From Onchocerca volvulus (taxonomy: Eukaryota; Nematoda; Chromadorea; Rhabditida; Onchocercidae): DNA of 64,000 nt. The stretch covers positions 6,286,616-6,350,615 of the forward strand of contig HG738139.1 in assembly GCA_000499405.2 (NCBI GenBank). The letters are read 5' to 3'. The notes below the pieces were generated by a model, which saw only the letters and a program-made list of their open reading frames with translations, had not been told where the DNA came from and ran no database searches. The position numbers and the translations under genes were made by a program. Positions 1 through 50,100 of this stretch are shown here, piece by piece. How positions within the stretch are numbered: position 1 is the stretch's first letter; the number at the start of each line of letters is the position of its first letter.

Positions 1-387
1 ATGTGATACATAAGTTTCACATATATTATTTACCACTTTTTTTGGATCATCGTTAATGAGAGCTGAAATGCGAGTTTTGTCAGTTATTTTTACGGGCAAT
101 TTCTTTTGTTTCTTCTGCGTATCTCTACTAGGTTTTTCGAGTGGTTTCTGAAATTCATAATGGTAAATATGGTTTGAAAAGTTTCCGACTGCATCAGTGG
201 TATTTTAACTTTGGCTTAATCAGCATACTCATCAATGCAATCTTAATTCAAAATGCAAGAGCTGAAGCAAGAATATTAAAAAAGGGTTGAACTTTTTTCA
301 TATTTCTGCAATGTTTTAGCCAATATTCGGAGGAAGGCAAACATCACTTTGCTCCAAAAAAAACTTTTTTTTTCATCTTAGTAGTGC

Positions 388-2156
388 CTAGCTATTAATT
401 ATGGAAGAGAAGATTTTCACTACATTCTTCTTCATCCTCCCTTCCAAAAGCATTTGTTCTTTCAGCCTCCATGCTGCTTGTCTTGCTGCTGTAACAGTAC
501 GATCGCTTCTTGAGGCATATGACCCAGATTCAACATCTGTAATAAATTCAATCAGCTTATAAGAAATGATTCCATCATAACATAAGTGTTTTAATGAATA
601 ATATTAAAACAAACAAAAAGCATTAATGACTAAACAATAAATCGAAGCAAAAAAAAATCACATTAGAGATTACCTTCATCTTTTTTACGTTATTTAAAAC
701 TTGATTTACATACATTTCACAAATTATAAAAATTAAACCATAATATACATAATGTTACTACATTAAAAGCTTACTTTTTACTTGACGAATTCCAAGAGGT
801 TCTATTATTGGCACGTGAAGTTGGTCATCATCCGAAGAACTGCGGAAGCCCATTTCATCTGCAACGAATAGAAGGAAATGATAATCCGAAAATCCTTTGT
901 TTCACTGATGTATTTTAATTTGAGTCATTACAGTTCCAAATTCTGATTGATAACATCTTCAAATTTCATTTGTCAAGTGATCAACTTGATGATTTTTATA
1001 GATTAAGTGAGTGAAAAAAATTATGAACTCCGACTGACCCTGAATTAATAATATAGATATTAATAATCAGTAAAGCAAAAATCATTTTTTTTTATCAAGA
1101 AGTAAATCTTGTTTTTTTCAATAACCAAAATGGAATAAGGACAGCGCTGCGATTCAACTTAAAGGGGAGATTAGATAATTTGAAAGCCTAATCAAATTTG
1201 ATAACTTCAAATTAGTGATGGAGTTTTTAAATTTAAATACTTAACTTTCGGTTCATGAAATTAAAAAAGCTAAATGAAAAATAGAAACATTCTTCTTACG
1301 TTCTCATTTCAAAAGATACACTGAAAATATTTTTAAAAAATCACCGAGTGAACACTGTCCATCTTGGTCAGTTGTGACATCATCATTCATTTCAGCTGAT
1401 TCAAGTGCTCGTTTTGCTGAAATGATGAGAATGATAGGAATTGTGGAAAAATTATTTCTTGCAGCCAAAATCGCTTCAATTCTTTTCTAATTAAAAAGAG
1501 AAAAAAAAAAGCAATAATATTGTGATTTGTTCCTTCTAACGATATTTTTCAAATTCTATAACCTCTTTTAACACAGCACTGCACTGCTAACAATTTCGCT
1601 CGATCCAATGTTGCTAAACTTTCCAAAATGTCATCCGAATATTGCAACAGCTTTATCTGAAAACTTACCATTGTACAGTACTCATTAAACTGTGAAATTA
1701 AGAAACACAAATTGTAAATTTAAAAAGTCAAGTAAAGGAAAAAAAATGATAACTTCTACGGAATCTGGATATTAATATAATAAGAATAATCTGTACGAAC
1801 TTTTGGAAATAATAAAATAAACAGAAATCGTTCGATAGTATATGGAAAAAACAACAAATTTTCGAAAAAAACTTCATGAAAAAAAGATTTTATTACTTCG
1901 CCACTTTATAAAGAAAGAAAAATAATACTACAAATGTATTTCTCTTCGGATTAACCTTTTTGCCTTGACGCTTGCAGACTGCTAAATGCCGAAAAATTTG
2001 TAATATAGTTCCAAATTGAGCTGTGCATCCCTTAGCATCACAAGCAAATAGTGCCAGATCAAGATGCTTCTGACAAAAATGTTCCTCGAATTCATCGTAA
2101 GTATCGAATGTTTCCTTGCATTCCACACCATCCACAGATGCAAGACACCAAAGTTC
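388..2156 (-). CDS. C2H2-like zinc-finger protein, 3' exons of a partial gene
   Basis: Five exons chain in phase on the minus strand: 2156-1956, 1656-1573, 1486-1345, 858-775 and 536-388, with TAG at 390-388, giving about 219 residues. The first exon carries a Cys/His-rich stretch (FEEHFCQKH, then FACDAKGC, then HLAVC) that reads like a degenerate pair of C2H2 fingers. The tail is acidic then basic (SSSDDDQLHVP, later TAARQAAWRLKEQ), which suits a nuclear protein. Introns use AG acceptors such as TTTCCAG and TTTTCAG. The donor of the second exon is uncertain: a GT at 1572 keeps the frame open, whereas one at 1562 does not. Upstream exons are missing; a short candidate at about 2441-2408 reads IIEVLNELS but its phase does not join directly. 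I do not recognise an orthologue and infer the function only from the Cys/His spacing. Confidence 0.55.
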
Positions 2157-2449
2157 CTGGAAATATATCATATGTGTTCCACGACATATCAATATGATAT
2201 TGCTTGCTTTTCTTATAATGATGTAGATGCTTAAATCGAATTAGAAAAATGGAAGAGGTAGAAAGAAAATTAGGGAAGAATGAAATGGGTAATGGAATGG
2301 AAATTGAAACACAATATATAATAAAACACACTGGAAATGAATAACACGAGAATTTGGGAGAATCTATAAAGGAGTGAATAAATTAAGAAATATTCCGTGA
2401 ATAACTCACCGGACAATTCATTCAGTACTTCAATAATTTTCCTGCAAGG

Positions 2450-2990
2450 GCAACAAATATAATGTATATACAATGAACTGAGCAAGTTTTATTAAGTGTA
2501 TCGATGACGCATATGTAAGCTTCAAACACAAACGTATGACTAAGTCCATTCTATGATGAAATGTATCAACCATATACTTTTTTATATCATCCAAATCCAA
2601 TGCACTACACTGAAGGAATCAGCGTGTTACAACCATTATCGAAAAATATAGATAACTCTTTGAATTATGCTCAACAAAATAATACATGATCTCAAATATT
2701 GGTTGAACTGCGGTTCGGTCCAATTTATTGCCAATATTTCCCCACGCGTTTACATTATTCAACTATTCTTACATATATTATTCGGATTTCAGTCATTCTA
2801 AGCAGCGAGATTTGTCTAGCTTAACGAAATCTGAAATGGAATTATCTCATTTCTCATACACTACGATCAAATTACTCATATCTTTGTTCAAAACCATAAA
2901 TAATTCATCGAAGGATAGAAAGCAGCCATGTAGCAGAATTTTCAAGCGAAACAATTCTATAAACAATGGTATTGTTAACACAGTCTCTCT
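2450..2990. other. No gene seen
   Basis: AT-rich sequence upstream of the zinc-finger exons. It probably holds introns or missing 5' exons of that gene, but no splice-consistent coding stretch was found. Confidence 0.4.
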
Positions 2991-3660
2991 CATGATAGAG
3001 AGAAATGGCTGATGAAAGAAGAGATGTAATCATAATGGCGTAGCCAACAAATCTCTGCACAGACGATAAACTACCCGTTGAACTGAGAGAACAAAAGCTA
3101 GTTGATACAACGAAGCTGAAAAGGGAAGAATGGTACAAGGAACAGTTGTGATCGATGTTACTATTGCTGGCATAGAAGAATATCAATGAAAAACAATTGG
3201 ATCAATTATTCAATGCGACGAGAAACATTAATATTTCAACGAGCGAATTTGGCACCATATCTGAAAATAGCAATGTCTAACTAATCTATGATTAGCATGA
3301 GAGTTATATTTTTTATGTTTTATATTACGTTCAATAATTCAGTTTTTTTCTTAGTTAAATTTGATCTTCCCTAGCAGAAATTTTGGTGCCATAAGCCGAG
3401 AATCCGATATATCAATAAGCATTGAAAGAAGCGCGAATCAGCAAAGAGGAAAGATTAGTTTTTGACGAAATTAGAGAAATGAATTCATCTACCTGATCAG
3501 CATCTTTCAAATGAAGGCAGTATGTGCAGTATGAAGTGTGATGAAAGATATTCGAGAAAAAACTACATGGACTCGAGATGCATGTTGAAGTAATGGATAT
3601 CATCAATAATGCTTCTAGAGTATTATAGCTGTGTGTGTAATGCAAAGAATGGGAGATCAA
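2990..3660 (+). pseudogene. Weak BEL/Pao gag relic
   Basis: Short plus-strand frames read like pieces of the gag relic further along (4.2-4.5 kb): one near 3070 contains VELREQKLVDTTKLKREEW, and one near 3450-3620 contains FDEIREM followed after stops by KKLHGLEMHVEVMDIINN. The order and spacing resemble the segment ending in KMERFESYV at about 4497. Many stops and frameshifts interrupt it. The assignment rests on similarity between relics in this window, not on a database match. Confidence 0.35.
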
Positions 3661-4006
3661 CATTTAAGAAGAATAATCGGCACAGAATCCACAAGCGAAA
3701 ACGTAATTATGTGGGTGAAACCCGAAAGATATAATTATTTGTATACAGGAAAAAAAGATGTACTTAGTTGCATAAAGGAATAAAAAATATGGTTGGGAAG
3801 ATGTTGGCAAAGTCAAAGGATGCAGTTATGAAAAACAAGAGATGTTAAAGTCAAATAGCACGAAAGGGGTCAACAAGCTGAAAGGATGAACATACTTACT
3901 GTCAATAACACCTAATACACAGGCAAACAAGTAAAGTTAAACAATCATGAAGAGATACGTTGAAGTTCAATTAAGGGCTTCGAAAGATTTAAAAGGGAGC
4001 AGTTAG

Positions 4007-5890
4007 ATGCCAGCGAAAGTTCCATTTCAAGTTCAAGTTTATTTACAACTCGGCTCCAAAAACAGTTCGACAGCAGCGACCAAGTTCAACAGCACTAACG
4101 ACAATTCATCAGGAGCATCAGCAATGAAGGAGCGAAGGAAGAAGACGATCAAAAAAGGAAAGTATAAACTTAATAAAGATCTTTGCTGACCTAGCTGAGT
4201 TACAACAGCAAGAAGAATCAATCTCCAATGAACAAAATGCAAACAAACAAGAGGGATTCTTTCCTCGAAATCATAAAAATCGACAATTTCTCGATGTCAC
4301 GAGCCGAGATGACATCCAAGATATTGGAAATGCTACTCCCGCGAAAGAGGACATCCTGAAACTCTTCCTCAACAAAATGAAAGAAATGGATTGGAGACCA
4401 ATCGACCAACATTTATCAGATGACAAACAATGTGAACAATATAAAAACCGAAAGGCGATCATTGATGAAAAGATGGAAAGATTTGAATCATATGTTTGAA
4501 CGCTCATGATTATCTCTGATAAATGGCTAGATTACTTGCAAAAGATCCCACCATAATAATGAAAGAGGAAAATGGAATATTTGGAGATAGTAGAAGACGA
4601 TCAAGAAATATTGAACATAATAAATGAAGAGGAAGAAGCATTGTTAATCTTGACCAAACACAAGAATGGCTGGAGCTAAAATCGAACGCAAAGTATACGA
4701 AGAGTGTCGGGAAAGTTTTTTATATTGTGACAGAGACGAATCTTCGTGGGAAAAATTTTATTGGCTAGAATGGATTTTTCTTTCACATTGTAAGATCAAG
4801 TCAGACTGAGATATATTAAGAATTTCTATCACACAAAATATTTTGATTACTCCATCATATTTTTATTATAAAAGATCATGGTTCTACCGACAAAGAGAGC
4901 CTTTAAATCAAACGGACCAAGGAAAGATGCTCCATACGGCTCGGCAAGCAACGGGAGATGAATCTCAATCAATCAACAAATTAAGAAGCTATCTGAGGAA
5001 AATAGCAAGCACAGAGAAAGATGTTCGGACCCAAATCTTACGGATTCGAGAAGAAACTAATGCATGCAAGCACGAATCGATAGTTCCGGGAGACAGAAAG
5101 AAGAGGATCCCCGGCTCTAGCATAGCAAAGCGGCGAGAATCAAACCACAATAACATTCCGAAAGTAATCAAAAGAAGGAATCCGAACTAAAATTCAGTCA
5201 ACAGAAAAAGAAAATCAAACAAGAACAGATCAGTTTTGGAAAATATCGATTTAGAAAAAAATCGACGTTCCGAAAGCAATCAAGAAAAGCAGTCCAGACC
5301 AAAACTCAGTTAAGAGAAGAAAATTAAACAAGAAATCTCGATAATAACGTTCCGAAAGAAATCAAAAAAAGAAATCCAAAGCGAAATTCAGCTCGGAGAA
5401 GACCTTGCTCATTTTGTAAAAAAGATCACTGTGATGAGGAGGAATTGAGACTATCTCATCGCGAAATAATAGATGGAGTATTTGAGAGAAATCTGTGCAT
5501 GCCTAAATTGTTTACAAAGGACCATATAGCAAGAAATTGAAAGATGATGGAGAAATTGTATTAAGAAATGAATCAGACAACTCTCGAGGTCTGTGGAAAT
5601 TGGCAAGAGCAAAGGAAATTAAGAAGAGTAGAGATAGATAGTAAGAACTGCATTAGTGGAAATGCCCAACGAGAAATATCTTAAAAGTGTATCTCCTCGA
5701 AGTCAACGAAACAATGAATATAGATGGAGAAGAGGTGAAGGATGACTCGGAGAAGTGAGAGGAAATATACGAAAGAACAAAGAAAACGTCTAGGAATCCA
5801 GACGAAAATATAACATCAAGAACAGGAAATGCCATTAGAAAACGTTTACCGGTAAAGAAGTCTCTGCCTGATGATGTTGAGTTTTCCTCG
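4007..5890 (+). pseudogene. Decayed BEL/Pao-type gag region
   Basis: Plus-strand remnants of a gag-like protein run from a low-complexity Ser/Thr/Asn leader (4007-4189) through a helical segment (KLFLNKMKEMDW, QYKNRKAIIDEKMERF, SDKWLDYLQKIP; about 4350-4545), a basic region (4843-5190), and a zinc-knuckle relic near 5402-5540 (PCSFCKKDHCDEEE, then a decayed second knuckle ending KDHIARN). The helical segment aligns by eye with the gag-like protein of the intact-ended LTR element at 14.4-15.0 kb (RRRVINQKIKFLELYIG, NNEKWLEFIQK), which supports the BEL/Pao assignment. Stops and frameshifts occur throughout and no reverse transcriptase or integrase was seen, so the element had lost its pol region. 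It is followed directly by an LTR-like segment. Confidence 0.6.
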
Positions 5891-5894
5891 ATCG

Positions 5895-6365
5895 GGAACC
5901 GGGAATATTTTGGTAGAATTGAAATATTTTATTATAAAAATATAACGTTATAATCCAGATCTTTTATATAGAAATTTGTAATAATTCTCAAATGAATCAT
6001 TATTCATCTCTTGGCACAAAGATCTTTGTTCTTTCATCTTGCGATCTGCTAATGGAGCTTATGTGCATTGTATGAAACATCGAGGTCCATGTTAACTGTC
6101 AGGAAGGACTAAAGACTGTTGTAAGCATTGTCCATCTCTTATTTGGTAAGTCTTTTGTAGAATGAATGTTATAAGTCTCCGCCCACTATCAGTACCAAAG
6201 AGTATAACATAAAAAAGAACTACCATAAAGAGTAAACTTGTTGTAAACGTATGGAGCAAACCCACAGAGCAAAAATAGCACAAAACCCTTGCTCTATAGA
6301 AACATACTACTTTCCAGGCTCTGATAATTTTGATATCAACTGTAGTAAGCAGTTCCACAGACTTA
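5895..6365 (+). mobile_element. LTR-like segment of the BEL/Pao family (copy C)
   Basis: A purine run CGGGAACCGGGAA (about 5897-5909), placed like a polypurine tract, precedes a stretch that matches both arms of the foldback at 51.9-53.5 kb. Shared landmarks in order are the AT-rich start with AAATATTTTA, GGCACAAAG.TCTTTGTTCT, GAGCTTATGTGCATTG, CATGTTAACTGTC and GCATTGTCCATCTCTTAT. The match fades after about 6200. The true 5' TG end is not preserved here. Confidence 0.5.
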
Positions 6366-6409
6366 TCGTTAATTGTTAAAGCAAGGCACGGCGGCGCAAA
6401 CTATGTTTA

Positions 6410-6636
6410 TTTACTTTTAACCGCTATGTGCCGCTTGCAAGTATGTTCGGCCATATAAATGTTTTACGTTCTATATCTCAAGGAAAAGCTCAATATAGTA
6501 TGCATTTTTCTTGTTATGAACAAGTGCTACAATGTGTGGTTGATGAGTTAAGGTACAATTACGGGCAATAATAATGGCACAAATAGTAGAGGCATTTGAT
6601 AAGCCACATGTAAATGTGGGAACAATAGGACATGTG
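6410..6636 (+). pseudogene. Nuclear insert of bacterial (Wolbachia-like) fusA 3' end and tuf 5' end
   Basis: One frame from 6425 reads [20 protein letters not shown] and continues with [12 protein letters not shown], the characteristic C-terminal end of bacterial elongation factor G, and stops at TAA 6569-6571. Two bases later an ATG at 6574 opens a second frame that reads VEAF.KPHVNVGTIGHV, the start of EF-Tu, and homology breaks off after 6636. The order fusA-tuf is that of the bacterial str operon, so this is a piece of bacterial genomic DNA, not a host mitochondrial-factor gene. In a filarial nematode the likely source is Wolbachia (inference). It contains only about 48 codons of fusA and 21 of tuf and cannot be functional. 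BEL/Pao fragments flank both sides. Confidence 0.85.
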
Positions 6637-6644
6637 TGTGGGAT

Positions 6645-7410
6645 TCAAGACCAGTATCAGCGGTAGTTCAGTTCCAGTCCAGTTTCGAAGACGAGTTCGA
6701 CGACAACAGAAGCGATAGTTCAACAGCACAAGCGATAGTTCAGCAGGAGCATCAGCAATGATAGAGCGTTGTCGGAATAACCGAAATATTTTGTAATATA
6801 AAAATATCGAGATAATCAAAATATTTTTATATTCTAAATATTTCGGCTTTAATATGCGATTTCTTAATTGTTTCGATTCATAAGTCATCAATCTGTAGAA
6901 CTTTGGGATCATGTGAAATGTCTCAAGTTTCAAAACAAATCATCCCCATATTAGTTAAATTTATGATCTTATGAAAGGTCTGAAATAATGTGAATATTTA
7001 TTAAATTCTCTTCAACTACCAATCATTCTATCACATAAATTGTTAAAATAATGTAAATATACAATGGTTAGTTATAATATTTAACTGATTAGTTGTATTG
7101 TTTATATTTCTTCTAATATAAAATTAAACTCCAAGAAAATTGTATTCCACAATTTAATTTTTAATCATCGGAAATCACAAACGTTACCAAATATTGTAAA
7201 CAAATTCAATATAAGATGGTTTATTATCTGCTAAAATCACCATTCAATTGTTCACTAAGTTCCTACCATTGCAATACTGTGTTATATCTTGTAGACTTAA
7301 TAAAGCTATGATTGATCTAGCGGAGTCACAACAGCAAGAAGAATCAATCTCCAATCAACAAATTACAAACAAATAAGAGGATCCTTTCTCTGAAATCATA
7401 AAAATTTCCC
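6645..7410 (+). mobile_element. BEL/Pao leader fragments split by an LTR-like start
   Basis: Positions 6650-6769 match the leader at 4050-4135 (shared CAGGAGCATCAGCAATGA). At 6770 an LTR-like start TGTCGGAATAACC begins, followed by CGAAATATTTTGTAATATAA as in the foldback arm at 51.87 kb. The leader resumes at about 7290 (GTAGACTTAATAAAG, then ACAACAGCAAGAAGAATCAA), matching 4165-4280. This looks like an LTR-derived insertion inside an older copy, now too decayed to delimit at its right end. Confidence 0.45.
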
Positions 7411-7544
7411 GATATATGAGTTAGTACAACGAACGTTAAAGCTACGTAAGAAAATTCAATGGTTCTCGCCCTAATCATTGCTATGTAAATTGGATGTCTT
7501 ACACTAGAACGTGGGGACTGTCGAAAAAAAATCAGATAGCCTGT

Positions 7545-8010
7545 AGTTTATTGATCGGAGATTGATTTTTCTAGCTGTTGTGACTCCACTAGGTTAGTAA
7601 TACCTTTTATTTGTTTTTATACCTATTTATATGCAGTATCACACTTATATAAGAATTAAATGAATACACGGCACATAAAAAATAATAGTCGTTGAATGCA
7701 CACAACGTTATCCTGTTTTCCTCTTCTAATTGTTTCTTCTTTCACTCTTCTTACTTCTGATGCTCTTGCTTGTGTTGTTGAACTGTCGCTCCTATTACCG
7801 TCAAAACTATCTTCGAAATTGGATAGAAACTAAACGGCGCTAAAACTAATCTTGAAGATATTAATTCTTTTGTGGCGAGCTATGGATAAATGATTCATTT
7901 GTCTGAGAATTATTACAACTTTTTATTATACAAAATGTTTTGGATTGTCTTATTATAATTATATTGTAAAATATTTCTATTTTACCAATAGAGACGATTC
8001 GGGACGGTTT
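7545..8010 (-). mobile_element. Inverted BEL/Pao leader plus LTR fragment
   Basis: Read on the minus strand, 8010-7860 matches the LTR-like start of copy C (GTAATAATTCTCA.A..AATG), and 7850-7545 matches the leader (GACAGTTCAACA.CACAAGC, then GAGTCACAACAGC.AGAA.AA). It lies in the opposite orientation to the copies on either side, so the region has been rearranged or hit by independent insertions. Confidence 0.45.
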
Positions 8011-8099
8011 TAAAATAGGTGACCGAAGTTTACTAGATAATCAGAGTTTTCCAGACATTCTTCAGGAGCTTATTTAAAGGAAGATGCAATATAAGCTAT

Positions 8100-8640
8100 T
8101 CGAAACTACACTTCTTGTGAGAGTTCTACCATCTAAAAGGTTTGACGATCTACAACTCATTAAAAATTTACTTACAATGAATTCCAGTTGATTAATGAAT
8201 GTAAACTAAAAGTGACTTTAAAAGCTTGAAATAATGTTAGAATTAGAAGCATATAAGAGAATATCGAACAGTAAAGTGTAGAAACAAATATTGGAGGATG
8301 GATTCTAAAGAAAGTATGCCAACAAAAAGGAAGTTGACAAATATGTGACTATTTTCATGTCTCAAATATTAAATTTGAAAAGAACAATCCAACTAAACAT
8401 TACATGATGGGTTCGGAACAGTAGGGTTTCTTGGCCTCAGTTAAGCAATATGAAGAATCGAAAACTATTAACGCAGAGTGACAATACATCGGTACTACAG
8501 GAGAGATCAAAGAATCTTTGCTTATTCTGTAACAAAGATCACCGGGACAATAAAATAATTCAGCATTATGTGATATATTTCACAAAGACAAGAAGAAATC
8601 AGGAAGGATTAAAATATGATGGAGAAAAGAGATAAAATTC
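8100..8640 (+). pseudogene. Second gag relic with zinc-knuckle remnant
   Basis: A broken plus-strand gag-like region ends in the frame 8450-8635, which holds LCLFCNKDH, the same knuckle type as the relic near 5400. The upstream part has stops and frame changes. It belongs with the fragments on both sides as debris of one retrotransposon family. Confidence 0.45.
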
Positions 8641-8819
8641 CAACACAAGAGTAACTGACTGAAAACCATGGTAGAATAAAAACGTTTTGCTCTTGTACCC
8701 AAAAAAAGAAGTCATATGAATCCAGAAATGCTAAAATCTAAACAGTAAGCAGCACTTTATGATGTAATATTGTTCAAAAATCATCAAAGCGACTGATAAC
8801 TACCAAAAACACCAGGGAT

Positions 8820-9290
8820 TTATTATTCATCATTTTATTATTATTTTCTGATTATTATTTTACCATCGCTATGTAATTATTATTATTTCATTATTACTAC
8901 TGTTATTATTAATATTTTTACTATTACTACCATTATTATTACTATTATTAATTATGATTGTTAATTATTATTAATTTTTAAATATTATTTATCATTATTA
9001 ATTATTATTTTTGCTATTACTATTATCATTAATTATTATTAATTGTTATGGTTAATCACTATTAATTATTATCAATTATTATTGGTTATTGTTATTAATT
9101 ATTAATTATAAACCATTATTAATTATTATTAATTATCCCTAATTTCTCTAATTAACAATAATTTTTATTATTATTAATTACTAATTTTTATGAACCATTA
9201 ATTTTTATTAAATGTTGCTTATTATTAATAATTAATTATTATTATTTATTAATAATAATTATTACCATTAATTATTGACGCGAAACTTGA
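8820..9290. repeat. ATT/TTA-rich low-complexity tract
   Basis: About 470 bp built almost entirely of ATT, TTA and AATT steps with occasional interruptions, an imperfect trinucleotide array. A shorter tract of the same kind lies at 9925-10009, directly beside the Helitron end. No coding content. Confidence 0.8.
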
Positions 9291-9925
9291 GTGGTATAAA
9301 TTGGAGTGTTGCACGACACTAAGATCTTTATTATTTCATTCGGTAAAGTATTATAGAATACAATACAGGAGTAGTCGTCCAATAATTCCTAAACACAATA
9401 GATGAAGAAATTAAAGAAATCAAGGGTGGACTTCGTGATCAAAGGGAGTAGTGCTGGATAATCGAAGGCACGACCGCATCGTTGTCGACGAAAAGTTAAC
9501 AATGATTTTTGGATCGTCGATTGCCGGCTACTTCGCTTCAGTCCACTCCTTGGCACTGTCTAGCCTAGGTGTCAGAAATCAACGACAAAGTAGCATCAAT
9601 CAAAGCAGGCGCGACTTTGATCATTGCATCATTTTCTGCCATTGATGAGTCTTAGTCTTTAGACTTGGGCAATTAAACTCTACATTTTAAACATCATTAT
9701 ACTTTAAAGTTTAATCAATACAAATTTAAACAATATGAGAGTTTCAAATGGTGTCGAAATTACGTCTGGCTTTGGTCCTCATAACATTGTAATCAATCAT
9801 CTAATATCTTAATATTTTTAATTGACACCTATTATATATCAAATTTTTACGAAATCAAATAAGAAAAAATAAAATTATTCTAATTAATATTAATATGAAT
9901 CCTTTTTTTGGTTATTCCGACAATT
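9290..9925. other. Unassigned segment, ending in an inverted LTR-like terminus
   Basis: A 64-codon plus-strand frame at 9451-9645 lies in a locally GC-richer patch (9440-9630), but I recognise no protein in it. At 9910-9922 the sequence GGTTATTCCGACA is the exact reverse complement of the LTR-like start at 6770-6782, so it marks a terminus of the same family facing the other way. Confidence 0.4.
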
Positions 9926-10009
9926 ATTATTTATATAGATTATTATTATTATTAATTAATATCTACATAGATTATTATTAATTATTGCTTTATAGATTAT
10001 TATTATTAA

Positions 10010-13000
10010 CTAACTGGACTCGGCCTCGCTCCGCATGGCGATTCAGCTAGTCTACGAGGGTCGACCTGCTTCGCGTGTCCGGCACCAGCTAATCCACATA
10101 AAAAAAAGAGTCAATGTTCATTTGTTCAAAAATCTTAAGCATAATTCAAAATCTTAGATATCGAAAACTCCTTACCTATTGCTTTGAAATTTTGATAAAA
10201 CTTTGCATTCGAATATGCACATGTTTTTATACCTGCGTTGCTATAGCTCAGTCTGGTTAAGTGGAAAAAAGAAAAGAGAAAGCGCATGTTTTTAGTGTTG
10301 GGGAAAAAACTGATACTTTGAAATTTAATTTGTAGTTTGGTTGAATTGGAGATTGTGATTAGGCTAGGTCAGCAATAAGTGTGAAGAGGTTTTTTTGTGT
10401 CTTGTGTGACAGAGATGAATGCTGTTGAGAAATGTTTTACTGATTGATGAAGAGTGCTTCTTCGCGATAAACAATTTTCAGAAAACATCCAGGTAAATTA
10501 AACACTGAGTTATTCTTTTCTTTGTCAATAGTAGAAAAGAATACTATTCAAGTGAATGTCGGATTATTATTATTATTGTGTCGCTTTGAACTATTGAATT
10601 GGAATCTTTGGAACTCCGAACTGTTGCTGTTGCTGCGTCGATCTTTACCTTTATCTGTGAATTGGAGTGTTTTGGTGGTAAACATGTTTTTCGTCTCTTT
10701 GAAGCTATGTTGCAGCACTTGACCTTCAATATTTCTTATTTACAATTACTGTTATGGCGTTATTTGACATCTTTCAGTTTTTGCCCACATCTAATATGTT
10801 TAATTTCACAATACTTGCGGGTATACAATATTTTTTGTTGTTCCATTGTCTGTGTAGATATAGAGATTGTGTGGTTTGCCGACTCTAGAACACTCAACAT
10901 ATAATTGTCCATATGAGAAGTAATAAGCTAGATCTAAACCACATAATTCTAAAAATTGATCTTGACTTTATTGATGGTGAATGCAAATGCCAACTGAATT
11001 GAGAATTGCAATCTCTTAAACTGAAATGGCATCCGTTGGAATCATAGGAATGCGAGGAATAAGGACATCTTCACCTCTAAAAGGTCCTGTCAAGATTGTT
11101 GCTTCTATAATGTTGCTCATTAATTTTTTTACTGCAAGCCGCGTGCTATTACAAGGTTTTGGTTGGTTGATATTTCGGAACATGATAATTGGCATGGCGA
11201 TTTTCAACTGCAGTATGTGAGGTGGTATCCCTGGCAGATCGAGTGAATTCAAAGATTCTGTTGGATAATTAACTGCTTCATCTGTTTTCACAACAGTGTC
11301 GAAGGACTTACATGTGACTACCTCGCTTTGATATTAGACTGCATAATATTGTCAAGTTCGTCGACGTCTTTGTTTTTGGCCGCAAGAAAAGCTCATATAG
11401 TCAGCCAATCGTGATTCTTATGATTGGTTTCAATATTGAGAAATACTTTTCAACCAACTCTTCTTTTGACGTTACTAAATTGCAGAAGTTATGAGGCAAT
11501 GAAATTCGTCCTGTGGTCAGATTAACCAGCACCTTTCCGTTCCCAATTTCCAGGAATTGATGTGAGAATATTTCAGCTGATCGATCGTTTTGGAGCTGAA
11601 TACGCATATTTGTAATTAATTTTAACGTATTTACGTGTCGCCAGAAAGTAGGATATTTTAGGCAATCATTTATTTCGTCCGTTGGTATCGATTGAGAAAT
11701 TATTGATAATCTTCGCCTGAAATCTCCTGCAAGCAATATTAATGCGTTCCAAAATGATCTGATATTTTCACGCAAATCTCGCAATGATCGATCAAGAATC
11801 TCGACCGATTTTTTTTGCGCCATTGTACATTTGTCCCAAACAGTAAGTTTGCATTTTGCAATCTTTTTCCATGCCGGATGTTTTGGAAATATTTATGTTG
11901 GGGTTTCAATGAACTGCATGCTCAGTGGCAATTTTAAAGTGGAATGAGCAGTTCTTCCACCTTGTAGCAATGTTGCAGATATTCCAGACGATGCAAAAGC
12001 TAATGCTATGCCATTTTGGGATCGAATTGTTGACAGAATCAACTAGTTTCTCCTGACCATCTAAAAATAAGATTTCTCCAACTCCCTTTCTGAAAGTTTG
12101 CATTATTTGATCGTAAATGCCTTTTTGCTCAAACATTAGCTTAGGAATATTTGATTGCACATATGACAAAAAAGATCAGTCGTGTTTTAATTTTGTTCGC
12201 AATGCAATTCTACATCGAGCGAAGCAGCAGCAGATCGATTCAGTGTTGGCATTCCCAACTGATAGAGAACTTTGTTCGCGATTTATAAGTGCAAGTTATA
12301 GATAGATAAATCAAAATTAACAAATAAAGGCATAATATGAATAAAATTTAAAAAAGAAAGAATTTTATTAATTATATTAAATTATAAGTTACCAATACTT
12401 CTGATGCATTTGAATATTTAATCTATGGAAAAATGAAGAAAGTTATGAGTTAATATTTTAACATTAAATTAACAACAAATTAAGTTAAATCAAAATTAAA
12501 TCGGAGAAGATTAACTAAGCAAAAAGCTTGAACCTAAGAAATATTCAGAATTAATGCAATAAAATTTCTTTAGGTTGAATTGATGCCTTTTTTCAAACAA
12601 ATTAAGCTAATTTTTATTCAACAGATATTTGAAAATTTTTTTTTTCAGATTCGTTACAAATCCAAAAATTTTTACATTTACCTGCCATGCCAGAAATTTT
12701 TTCAAATTCTTTTTATCATTTTTTCCTTCTTTCCTTGGATAAATCCACGTAATGTAATAAGCATAGCAATAGAGAAAGAGATGGGAGGTAGAGGGAGAAT
12801 GAAAAAAAAAAAAAGGAAGGGAATCAATCAACTCCACCCTTCACTTATTTTTAGTTGTAACGGACATGACAAGACGTGACACGTGATAAAAAGTAAGTAT
12901 CCTTATATAAAAAACGCGTCTGTCCGGACGTAAGGTTGTGTCAAAATTTGAAAGCAATCGATGCAGAACTTCCGAAGATTTGTCATTTGTAACAGGTAGC

Positions 13001-13023
13001 ATTTACATTTTTATTTATATCGA
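10010..13023 (-). mobile_element. Helitron (about 3.0 kb, degenerate, with helicase relic)
   Basis: Both ends match the 575-bp element at 46.6-47.2 kb while the interiors differ, which fixes the boundaries. On the minus strand it starts TC at 13023 and ends TTAG at 10010 (the other copy has canonical CTAA), flanked by A and T as expected for Helitron insertion between A and T without duplication. About ten bases before the 3' end is an imperfect hairpin around GCGGAGC, and a second with loop GCGAAGC lies further in. The helicase relic inside reads in the same orientation. At 3.0 kb it is much shorter than autonomous Helitrons, and no Rep (HUH) domain was seen. Confidence 0.85.
10810..12200 (-). 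pseudogene. Helitron PIF1-like helicase, decayed
   Basis: Minus-strand pieces keep the order of a Helitron helicase. N-terminal part: EQKGIYDQIMQTFRKGVG (about 12135), followed by a corrupted Walker A region. Middle (11823-11401): a frame with ALILLAGDFRRRLSIISQS and LKLITNMRIQLQNDRSAEIF. C-terminal part (11291-11016): LPGIPPHILQLKIAMPIIM and PFRGEDVLIPRIPMIPTD. Last part near 10815-10925: GQLYVECSRVGKPHNLYIY, the conserved motif VI end. Frameshifts and stops separate the blocks, and the Rep part is absent, so it cannot mobilise itself. Confidence 0.85.
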
Positions 13024-13841
13024 TTATTTATTAATTTTTAATTTCAAGGCATTTAGTGTTGAAAATAAAAAGAATGCTAGTCGAAACAATGATAATGTGC
13101 ATGGGTGCATGACTAACATCCAAAATATCTTAGAGAATATTTCCAAAATATCATTAATTTATTTGGAAGTAGAATTTGCAGATGAACTTAAAATGCCGTG
13201 CGATGTTTAGAAAATGGGAAAGATATCAGAAAAAAATAAGAGAGCAAGGACAGCAATGGTAAGGAGGATCCAACCATTAAATAGCCTGGTTAAGAGGAAA
13301 GATTAAATGTACAAACAGAAAATATACACAATTACCGCAACAGTGATATGAGATAGCTGATTTCTGTATCTATAGTAATTCTACTTTGTAGAGCAGAATG
13401 TTTTATTTTGCTAAAGTTTTTAGTCAGTTCCTCTTTTGTTGGTACTATCTCGTTTCTTCTTTATTATATTTTAATTATTCCTCCTGACTTCTTGTCTTTA
13501 CAATATATTATATATTACAGTAACTTTGTACAGAAGAAGCAAGATCTTTTGATCTTTGTAGACTCAATTTTGCTTACCTCTAGTACTACCGAATGTATTG
13601 TGATCCAGTATTTATAGCTTTCGGTGTTTTTCCAGTAGCTGAAGCCAAGAAGAAATTTCATTGACCGCACTGTTCTGAAACTTAAGTATTTAATTGGATT
13701 GTTCACCTCAAATTTAATACTTGATGCATGGAAAAAGTCCATATTCGTCGATTTCTTTTTTCAAATCTCCTTTTTATTTATACAATTTCTTTAGAATTTA
13801 TCCTTCAATATTTAATTCCATATTTTAGTATTCGATATTAT
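13024..13841. other. No gene seen
   Basis: AT-rich spacer between the Helitron and the LTR retrotransposon. Short frames only, with no convincing splice signals or protein similarity. Confidence 0.5.
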
Positions 13842-14405
13842 TGTAGTGAAAATTGCTTTTGTAACGCGAACCAATCTCAAACTTGGGTAATTAAACCTTT
13901 ATTATAAGAAAAACTTGATAATACGAAATACGAATTCTTACAAACATTACATATAAAATATAGCACGACTAATGGTAATAAATAAAAAAAATCGGGATAG
14001 ATGTGTGTTGAAAGCGAAAATGAACGAATGAATAGGGAAAGGGTTGTAAGTTTATATATATGGGCTTTGTTAGCACAATGCATTCGGGCTTTTGTTAGCA
14101 AGATGCCGCTAGCCCTTTGTTAGCAGGATGCCGCTAACCCTTTGTGAGCAAGATGGCGCCAACAGTTTGTTAGCAAGATGTCGCTAACCCTTTGTTAGCA
14201 GGATGGCGCCAACAGTTTGTTAGCAAGATGTCGCTAACTCTTGGTTAGCAAGATGGCGCCAACACTTTGTTAGTTAGATGCCGAAAGGTTTATATCTTAT
14301 GTAAATTAAGTTACAAAATTAAAAAAAATGTTTAATCTGGAGAAATGTTACTACTTGTTTGAATTTAAGAAAGATTTCAAATTTTGATCTTCAGTTGTTC
14401 TGACA
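13842..14405 (-). repeat. 3' LTR of the short retrotransposon
   Basis: 564 bp. Contains TTTATT at about 13903, the complement of an AATAAA signal, near its minus-strand 3' end. A 25-bp minisatellite of about nine units lies at 14067-14285. Differs from the 5' LTR mainly by one extra repeat unit and a small indel near 13985. Confidence 0.85.
14067..14285. repeat. 25-bp minisatellite inside the LTR
   Basis: About nine copies of a 25-bp unit TTTGTTAGCAAGATG.CGC followed by TAACCC or CAACAG. The two endings largely alternate, suggesting a 50-bp higher-order unit. The other LTR has a matching array at about 15217-15420 with one unit fewer. Confidence 0.85.
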
Positions 14406-18239: not shown

Positions 18240-32948
<14,709 letters not shown>

Positions 32949-47159: not shown

Positions 47160-50100
47160 TATGAAAATCGATATGAAATTGTACAGTTTCTTCTTTACAT
47201 TCTTTTCTACTTCATGACAAAGATCTATTCAGTTTAATTTTTAAATTCATTTAATGCATTTAATTCAAGAAATTTATCCTAAATTGATTATAAATGAATG
47301 ATTCCATTCTTTCACATTTTCACCTATCTTCCTTTTCGCAACTTTTTTCTAGCAAAAATCTTGCAGATAATAATATAAACAATTTTTTCAAGTTAAATAA
47401 TTAGCAATTAACAAATTGCGCAATCGAGCGAATATTTTGGCAAAGACTTTGCTTTAAGCCTAATTAGCAAACCTCTTTGATAAGCGTCATATACCTATAA
47501 TTGAAACTTGGCTGTTACTGATTCTAAAGACATGAAAGACAGTTTTTCTTTCTTCTTTTACAAACTTATTCCTTCTCGAGAGATTTAAATTTATTAGCAA
47601 ACTATTACATTATAAAATGCGCGTGAGAAACCGGTTTTAGGAAGAAATGAAAGAAAATATGTTTTTAGAATATTTTCTGCTTTGTCATCAGTTTCCTCTT
47701 CGCTATTTTTTTAAGCAAAAGTTTGTTTATCGAAATGTTTGTACGACATCGTACACAGTGTGCCATATTCTTTTTTCACCTTTCTATTTCTAATAGTTTA
47801 TTTTAACAAGACGAACAACGAAAAGGTTAAAATAGGTCAAGTGATCTAAATATGTGCACTAACACGAGAAACAAACCTACCAACATCTACAGTTTCAGAA
47901 ATTTACCGATGTCAATGAATATAGTGAAAATCGCTTCCTTCAAATGCACTCTCTATCTCTCTTTCGAACAGTCAAATATCTTCTCTAATAATCCAATTAA
48001 TAAATCTGTTTTTGATTATACTTTATCACTCTTCCAATAAATATCGGTTGTACATGAAAAAGAAAGTAAATATGAAAGGCATATGTTAGATTAAAACTGA
48101 ATTAATTACGAATTCATTAATAAAACTGAGTGATTCCCCTCTATCTTACTAGGGAAAGTACTACGTTAGATAGGTGATATTTGGAAATAGATATGAATTT
48201 TAATGAAATATATGGATCTGAGTTAAATTTATTCCTTGGACTCACATCATATAAGGCAAAATGATTCTAAGCATTCCAAACATTTGTTTTAAAAAAATTA
48301 GCCGCTTCAAAAAGCTTCACTCAATGGCTGATAAATGAAAGAACAGAATAAATAAAGAAAAAAGAGATGGGGCAGAAAGATTATCTCTGATCCAGGTGCA
48401 ACCTTTTTTTTTTTTTTTTTGTAATTATCAATGAATTTCTAACTTTATCCTGGAAGACTGAAAATCTGAAAACTTCCAGCTAGTAACTTTGAGACAATTC
48501 AGAAATTTAGTCGTTCAAATTTTAGACTATTCTCTTGATTGCTAAGCATCGCTCATTTCATTGTGACTTTTTTAAAGAGCAACTTAATTGTCTCTTTATT
48601 GATTTCATTTGAGAAGATAGAAGAGGATGGAAATTCGATTAAGAAAGATCTATTACAGTATAAAAATGAGGCATTAAAACTAATTGAAAAAACGTTTGTA
48701 CCAAAGTGAACTGAAAAAAAAGAACAAAAAAAAGTTTAGGAGTATGACGAAAAAGCGATATAAATTGGGGCAATCAATCAAATCAAGCTATACATTATGC
48801 ATCAAATATATCAAAAAACAAAAGATTTAAGAACTGAATATGAAGTTGCCAATAGAAATTTCATTTTTAATGATAACATTGTTGCTTCATAGTTGGCATG
48901 CTCAATTATAAAAATTAATGGAGTTAGAGTTAAGTTTTTGTCATGATATGTTTATAGATTTTGTTCATTTTGTTTGTGAGGAAGCAAGGAAGTCTGAAAA
49001 GTAGCATGACAAAAATAAAAAAAAAATTTATTAAGAGAACTTTTTTTTTTTTATTTTTCCTCCTTTTTAATTTCTTTTTTTCATGGAATAGATTAAAGTT
49101 GCTTTTTTCCTGGCGTTCGTATGTTTTGTTTTTCTTCATATTCTGAATAGTTTTGATTCTTTTATGAAGAAATAAAAATAGAACTAGAACTTAGATATTA
49201 GAGAAAATGTAAAATAAACTGTCTAGGATCCGAGATATCATGGGAGATTTCGAAGTATCATGAAAAATTAGAGGGAACTAATAACTGAAGTCAAACGGGA
49301 TGGAGAAAGCATGGATATGGACAGATGAAGGACCGATTAAATAAATGGAGAAATAAAATAGAACAAAATGACCATAATGAAATTTTTTTGGGAATTGATA
49401 GAGACGTACAAAGTTTATCAGTCCATAGATATATTTCTAAGTCTAATTCACAAATATGCATCAAGAGATTCGGATGTATAATTTGCCTTTGTTTCACAAT
49501 ATTCGGAAGTACAATAGTGTAATACTATTAAAAAAATTTGTTGCATTAAGAAATCGCTAATGAATAAGATGCAGGCGACTAATTCCTGCTCAGTTTATTT
49601 TCGTTCTGAAATGCTTGTTTAATAGTAGAAAGAATCCTCGAAATTCAAAAGTTGGAGATTTTTCATTTCTAAATTTTAAATAAAATAAAAATTTTATGAG
49701 TGTAACAATTTGCAATTTAGAAAAAGCTATTTTTTGGAGAGAGGAAAACTAAGCAGCGATTTTGCCAAATAAATCGTACAATTGCATCCTGCCATAATTC
49801 GTCAAATTATCGAAAACAAATGTGAAGACTGGAAAATTGGTCGAAGTACAGATGGAAAGTTTAAAGGATCTCGAATTATTCGAAAAATTTAGATAAAAGT
49901 GTCGATATAACAATGCAGATCAAACAACCGACTGTGCAGAGTGGCGATTAAAAATTTGAATCTTTCATGACTACATTAGCAATCCATTGCAGAATGGGGC
50001 TGGTTGGAAATGGAATTTAGCACATCGTCAAAAAGGGTAAAGGTCACATCAACTACTTACATCGTATCGCCGCATTGTCACCATCCGTCTGTATCTTCCT

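Follow-up and report, generated by a model that had tools for sequence, protein, structure and literature searches.

A segment of the Onchocerca volvulus genome near position 6,400 of the window, the whole stretch of 64,000 nucleotides analysed here, reads as the junction between the bacterial elongation factor genes fusA (EF-G) and tuf (EF-Tu), which raises the question of whether symbiont DNA has entered the host genome at this locus and, if so, in what form it arrived. A first-pass annotation of the sequence had described positions 6410-6636 as a nuclear copy of an intact operon junction, probably from Wolbachia, that was transferred as a single segment and bordered on both sides by debris of BEL/Pao retrotransposons.

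Origin and decay of the fusA-tuf fragment

The bacterial similarity is concentrated in one ungapped piece, hereafter piece C, whose limits fall within those first proposed; positions 6410-6427 belong to a different piece (piece B, below).

6428-6635, forward strand: Wolbachia piece C, the end of fusA (EF-G, with EFG_C), the spacer and the start of tuf (EF-Tu), corresponding to wOo 138527-138734
6560-6562, forward strand: site at which wOo and wDi have the EF-G stop codon, which the nuclear copy has lost

Over its 208 bp, piece C is 93.75% identical to wOo, the Wolbachia of Onchocerca ochengi (NC_018267, L005; E 5e-87 and 1e-85), and 89.4% identical to wDi, the Wolbachia of Dirofilaria immitis (L009). 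Comparison with Wolbachia, which the first-pass annotation had suggested for 6370-6640, placed wOo first among 12 Wolbachia or Rickettsiales loci, the ten besides wOo and wDi reaching 75-88% to piece C; this ranking reflects pairwise identity over the 12 loci rather than a tree. Pfam analysis assigned the EF-G C-terminal part to EFG_C (E 2.6e-7), whereas the 30-aa EF-Tu part, taken by itself, matched no Pfam entry. As a control, the reversed window gave zero matches at E 1e-3 to 408 kb of wOo. The tuf start of piece C also matches the second tuf copy of wOo, at 942 kb; only the fusA-linked copy spans the whole piece.

The gene order of piece C is that of the operon, with a C-terminal piece of EF-G followed by the start of EF-Tu, but the arrangement is not intact and the stop codon and two-base gap that had been taken for bacterial spacing are not bacterial. 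Among the nine of 12 loci in which the tuf start was located, the spacer measures 11 bases in seven and 14 in two, against 2 in the window, and EF-G ends after 44-46 codons of the stretch in the 12 translated loci (L005-L016) against 47 in the window. The stop codon shared by wOo and wDi is lost, and in the window EF-G runs on to an in-frame stop further downstream, at 6569-6571. Because the Wolbachia and Rickettsiales loci have the longer spacer and the earlier EF-G end, the operon-like layout is, on this sequence comparison, a product of decay. A functional gene was rejected, as 47 EF-G codons and about 20 EF-Tu codons are left and the EF-G stop is gone; the insert shows no sign of function and appears to be decaying as a pseudogene. 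Four of the Wolbachia or Rickettsiales loci (L006, L007, L010 and L014) carry about 21 additional bases at the tuf start that are absent in wOo and wDi.

Three Wolbachia pieces within a host repeat

A search of the whole wOo genome with window 5900-7300 identified the donor sites of piece C and of two further pieces that lie directly to its left, where BEL/Pao debris had been annotated.

6212-6336, reverse strand: Wolbachia piece A, corresponding to wOo 519386-519505 on the reverse strand, 84% over 126 columns (E 3e-32 / 7e-31)
6337-6427, forward strand: Wolbachia piece B, corresponding to wOo about 611988-612091, 89% over 6349-6427 (wOo 612011-612091)

Piece B features an internal 11-bp deletion between GCA repeats, and the 12 bases between the matches of A and B were assigned to B (6337 onward) by reading the flanks. 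In window order, the three donor sites lie at 519, 612 and 138.5 kb of wOo and in mixed orientation, so a single transferred segment does not describe the insert. The wDi matches are also far apart (A at about 438 kb, for the right part of A only, B at 350 kb and C at 696 kb), and the A-B-C order is therefore not a gene order shared with wDi. Both internal joins, A-B (6336/6337) and B-C (6427/6428), are blunt, and neither templated filler nor microhomology was found at them. The whole insert consists of 424 bp of three abutting Wolbachia pieces, each roughly 90-210 bp long, and has the features of complex insertions of the numt/nupt type: distant donor sites, mixed orientation, a single locus and internal joins without long homology, the host-side joins being eroded and uncertain in form. 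At window 7022-7051, 30 bp match wDi (E 3e-4), a similarity attributed to chance.

On either side of the insert lies an arm of an interspersed host repeat.

5905-6211, forward strand: left arm of the host interspersed repeat, with copies elsewhere in the genome
6636-6749, forward strand: right arm of the repeat, matching L074 and L075 among others; in L075 and L038 it runs on directly from the left arm

The best 40 of 149 candidate matches to this flank were scored, the window's own among them, and seven of the 38 repeat loci tested hold copies without the insert. In L075 and L038 a single alignment runs through both arms, and in five further loci both arms lie close together. At the position of the 424-bp insert, L075 has 21 extra bases and the other five loci have 20-72. 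Since copies that lack the insert carry these extra bases, some tens of bases of the repeat were probably lost at insertion; identity between these copies and the window arms is no more than about 66-82%. As both arms have other copies in the genome, the insert appears to be flanked by host DNA on both sides. These copies without the insert, together with the identity of piece C to wOo and the lack of any full-length copy of the 8.1-kb wOo region among its 23 matches in the assembly (below), support the first-pass proposal of a nuclear copy of a Wolbachia fusA-tuf junction.

The nature of the landing site was only partly as described: an interspersed host repeat did receive the insert, but its identity as BEL/Pao, on either side, was not confirmed. 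No Pfam retrotransposon domain was found in eight ORFs near the site (from 10 ORFs of at least 100 aa in 1-14000), nor in seven ORFs at other repeat loci (from 14 of at least 120 aa). Further along the window, on the reverse strand, two open frames apart from each other (11016-11892) have PIF1-like helicase domains by Pfam, as Helitron transposons do, and an open frame of 513 codons (27234-28772, reverse strand) had no Pfam match at E 0.01.

Mosaic insertions across the host genome

The mosaic pattern of the window is also present elsewhere in the host genome. When the host assembly (94.68 Mb, 115 contigs) was searched with 8.1 kb of wOo, 23 places matched, the best of which spans 598 bp in the host, and none was a full-length symbiont copy of this region. 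Two matches within a host EF-Tu-like gene were dropped, and loci of roughly 3 kb around the remaining 21 insertions were compared with 408,141 bases of wOo (43%). A non-collinear second Wolbachia piece was present in the 3-kb locus of 8/21 insertions when the window's is counted (7/20 of the others), and this piece lay within 30 bp in 7/21 (6/20 of the others); the other 13/21 had no second piece when tested against that 43% of wOo. Across 51 pieces, the median length is 122 bp. A second wOo query, 10 kb long, matched the host genome 30 times, and the mosaic counts rest on the 8.1-kb query. Insertion places number about 2 per 64 kb, and the window holds one besides the mosaic.

48660-48931, reverse strand: second Wolbachia insertion, corresponding to wOo 515713-515980, 78%, a single piece that is more diverged than the mosaic

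Eleven joins were picked for inspection. Two are those of the window; in five others (one each in L086, L087, L094, L098 and L089) the pieces meet to within one base, and in about 4-5 of the 11, the join on contig C81 counted, they are separated by 13-41 bases or their ends are ill-defined. L089 (C4 near 4.03 Mb, 4,031,952) contains at least 20 wOo matches in 3,087 bases, originating from 52 to 871 kb of wOo (best 40 of 97 candidates scored), and the stretch may extend past both ends. On contig C81 (L002, near 2,967-3,047), two pieces form a mosaic that has hardly decayed: the first, of 159 bp, is 100% identical to wOo and the second, of 242 bp, reaches 99%, their donor sites lying at 511 and 612 kb; a third wOo match, of 23 bp, lies inside the first piece. 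Given identities of 99-100%, the C81 pieces were short before any decay. The 18 bases between them look like templated filler, and likely are, as filler and join repeat 13 adjacent bases in the way that a templated insertion would, in this one case and in AT-rich sequence. The sequence around the C81 pieces matched neither wOo nor the host loci compared, and we infer that it is host DNA.

Age and formation of the insert

Private substitutions, defined as changes in the nuclear copy relative to wOo and outgroups (wDi for A, six outgroups for C), were counted for each piece. They number 8/119 sites in A, 5/91 in B and 10/208 in C (8/208 with wDi alone). The three loads do not differ detectably (chi-square p 0.77), in what is a weak test on few sites; p is 0.41 if B is taken at 8/91, the count obtained when its deletion is misplaced in the alignment, and scoring C by wDi alone gives 0.50 (B 5/91) or 0.21 (B 8/91). 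Equal divergence and exact abutment of A, B and C are compatible with joining before or during integration. Decay relative to the living symbiont is seen in these substitutions, in the 11-bp deletion of B and in the lost EF-G stop. wOo has changes of its own in each piece (5 in A, 4 in B and 3 in C), and the transfer therefore seems older than the recent history of wOo; it also seems younger than the split between wOo and wDi, because 13 differences separate the nuclear copy from wOo, as against 18 between wOo and wDi. Given the changes private to wOo in all three pieces, O. ochengi would be expected to share the site.

Our preferred reading, to which we assign a probability of roughly 0.85, is that the insert represents a mosaic nuclear Wolbachia transfer (nuwt) that arose as one 424-bp insertion and not as a transferred operon, since the internal joins are blunt, the loads show no detectable difference and repeat copies without the insert exist. 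Symbiont DNA would have been broken down to roughly 90-210 bp, and three of the resulting fragments, from distant parts of the genome, would have been joined end to end in mixed orientation. The product may then have sealed a break in the interspersed repeat at the cost of some tens of repeat bases. Parsimony and the parallel with complex organelle insertions lead us to infer that joining preceded or accompanied the repair of one break, presumably in the germline and through end joining of the polymerase-theta or classical type. Complex numts, nupts and numins of plants are described as pieces of various organelle regions, sometimes in opposite orientation, that were concatenated before or during break repair and bear end-joining signatures (Portugez 2018, PMC6215612). 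The insertions described here are alike in their scrambled concatenation, but they join a bacterial endosymbiont as donor with a nematode as host. In Caenorhabditis elegans, polymerase-theta-mediated end joining is reported to join broken chromosome ends with minimal microhomology and occasional templated insertions (PMC8654963). The nuwt mosaics may be comparable to its products in these two respects, with one likely templated filler, on C81, and none at the internal joins of the window's mosaic, and the capture of symbiont DNA by this route would be an extension of its reported role.

Decay of one large Wolbachia insertion, deleted and inverted down to three remnants, is an unlikely origin. 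Insertions of 484 and 528 kb are reported from tsetse (PMC3998919), and McNulty 2010 (PMC2882956) left a large insert open for filariae, but such decay would here call for an inversion as well as deletions, each tens to hundreds of kb long, that ended inside one repeat and left three blunt joins. The nearly identical C81 pieces are already short and re-joined, and the L089 matches, packed into 3.1 kb, would need many deletion or inversion events. Three separate insertions into the same spot at different times, slightly less probable again, would fit the unequal identities to wOo (A 84, B 89 and C 94%); against them stand the exact abutment of the pieces, the lack of a detectable difference in private divergence by the weak test above, with or without the corrected alignment of B, and a frequency of second pieces within 30 bp that is far above chance at the observed density of insertion places. 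An assembly artefact in which symbiont reads bridge host contigs is very improbable. Symbiont DNA would be expected in the DNA source, but the insert is 6-16% diverged, carries indels and has lost the EF-G stop, and beyond the site the host repeat resumes. The join to a symbiont contig against which the first-pass annotation had cautioned therefore finds no support as far as the assembly allows a test, piece C being 6% diverged and decayed, unlike what a live symbiont contig would contain. The same annotation had named a host mitochondrial elongation factor as a possible source; EF-G and EF-Tu do occur as mitochondrial proteins, but a pseudogene of these was rejected as having next to no likelihood, because the 94% DNA identity to wOo continues through the intergenic spacer and the only places in the host genome that match 6370-6640 are the window itself and C81 (over 6370-6427 only), which also excludes the host EF-Tu-like gene (C2:4156933-4157522) as the source of piece C. 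That gene is a different locus, with about 69% identity to wOo and one 67-bp block at 84%, and the one exon checked has an open EF-Tu frame whose best solved-structure matches are bacterial, with mitochondrial EF-Tu behind.

Nuwts are well known in Onchocerca: 531 putative nuwts were reported for O. volvulus (Cotton 2016, PMC5310847), followed by 818 matches in 653 regions, 96% of them from supergroup C (Vancaester 2025, PMC12693587). The insertions described here resemble these, since in both cases the Wolbachia pieces in the nucleus are decayed and for the most part short. Taken alone the locus is unremarkable, and the main result is the mosaic pattern. A word search found no mention of mosaic nuwt structure in the main text of PMC12693587, and mosaic nuwts are not described in the portions consulted of PMC5310847, PMC3849323, PMC4046930, PMC4675112, PMC7181701 and PMC4299567. 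A search by title and opening abstract found no report of mosaic, scrambled or complex nuwts; the supplementary tables of Cotton 2016 may list the locus itself.

McNulty 2010 considered it undecidable whether nuwts of Acanthocheilonema viteae and O. flexuosa, with mean piece lengths of 159 and 174 bp, stem from one big insert later scattered or from separate small pieces. These means are near the median of 122 bp found here, and the mosaics speak to the same question, which becomes testable with sister species and long reads. The mosaic indicates that shredding and re-joining of symbiont DNA can precede its entry into the host; blunt joins, no detectable age difference between pieces and the nearly fresh C81 case point to a shredding step no later than integration, and piece-by-piece nuwt counts can consequently overstate the number of events. 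More tentatively, and at somewhat less than even odds, much symbiont-to-host transfer in Onchocerca may draw on pooled, shredded Wolbachia DNA whose fragments are ligated into scrambled, many-piece concatemers before or while germline breaks are patched, in which case piece-by-piece catalogues would miscount events and misread their history.

Two observations concern other features of the host sequence. The nematode SL1 leader occurs in 434 copies in the genome (106 forward, 328 reverse), and L003 (C1 near 212-243 kb) contains a long tandem SL1 gene array with 313-base units, in which Rfam detected no 5S rRNA over the 3 kb scanned. Glutathione transferase exons point to an Onchocerca host, most likely O. 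volvulus, as they match two solved O. volvulus structures, with 48/48 and 52/52 aligned residues identical to 2hnl chain A and 41/42 to 1tu7 chain A.
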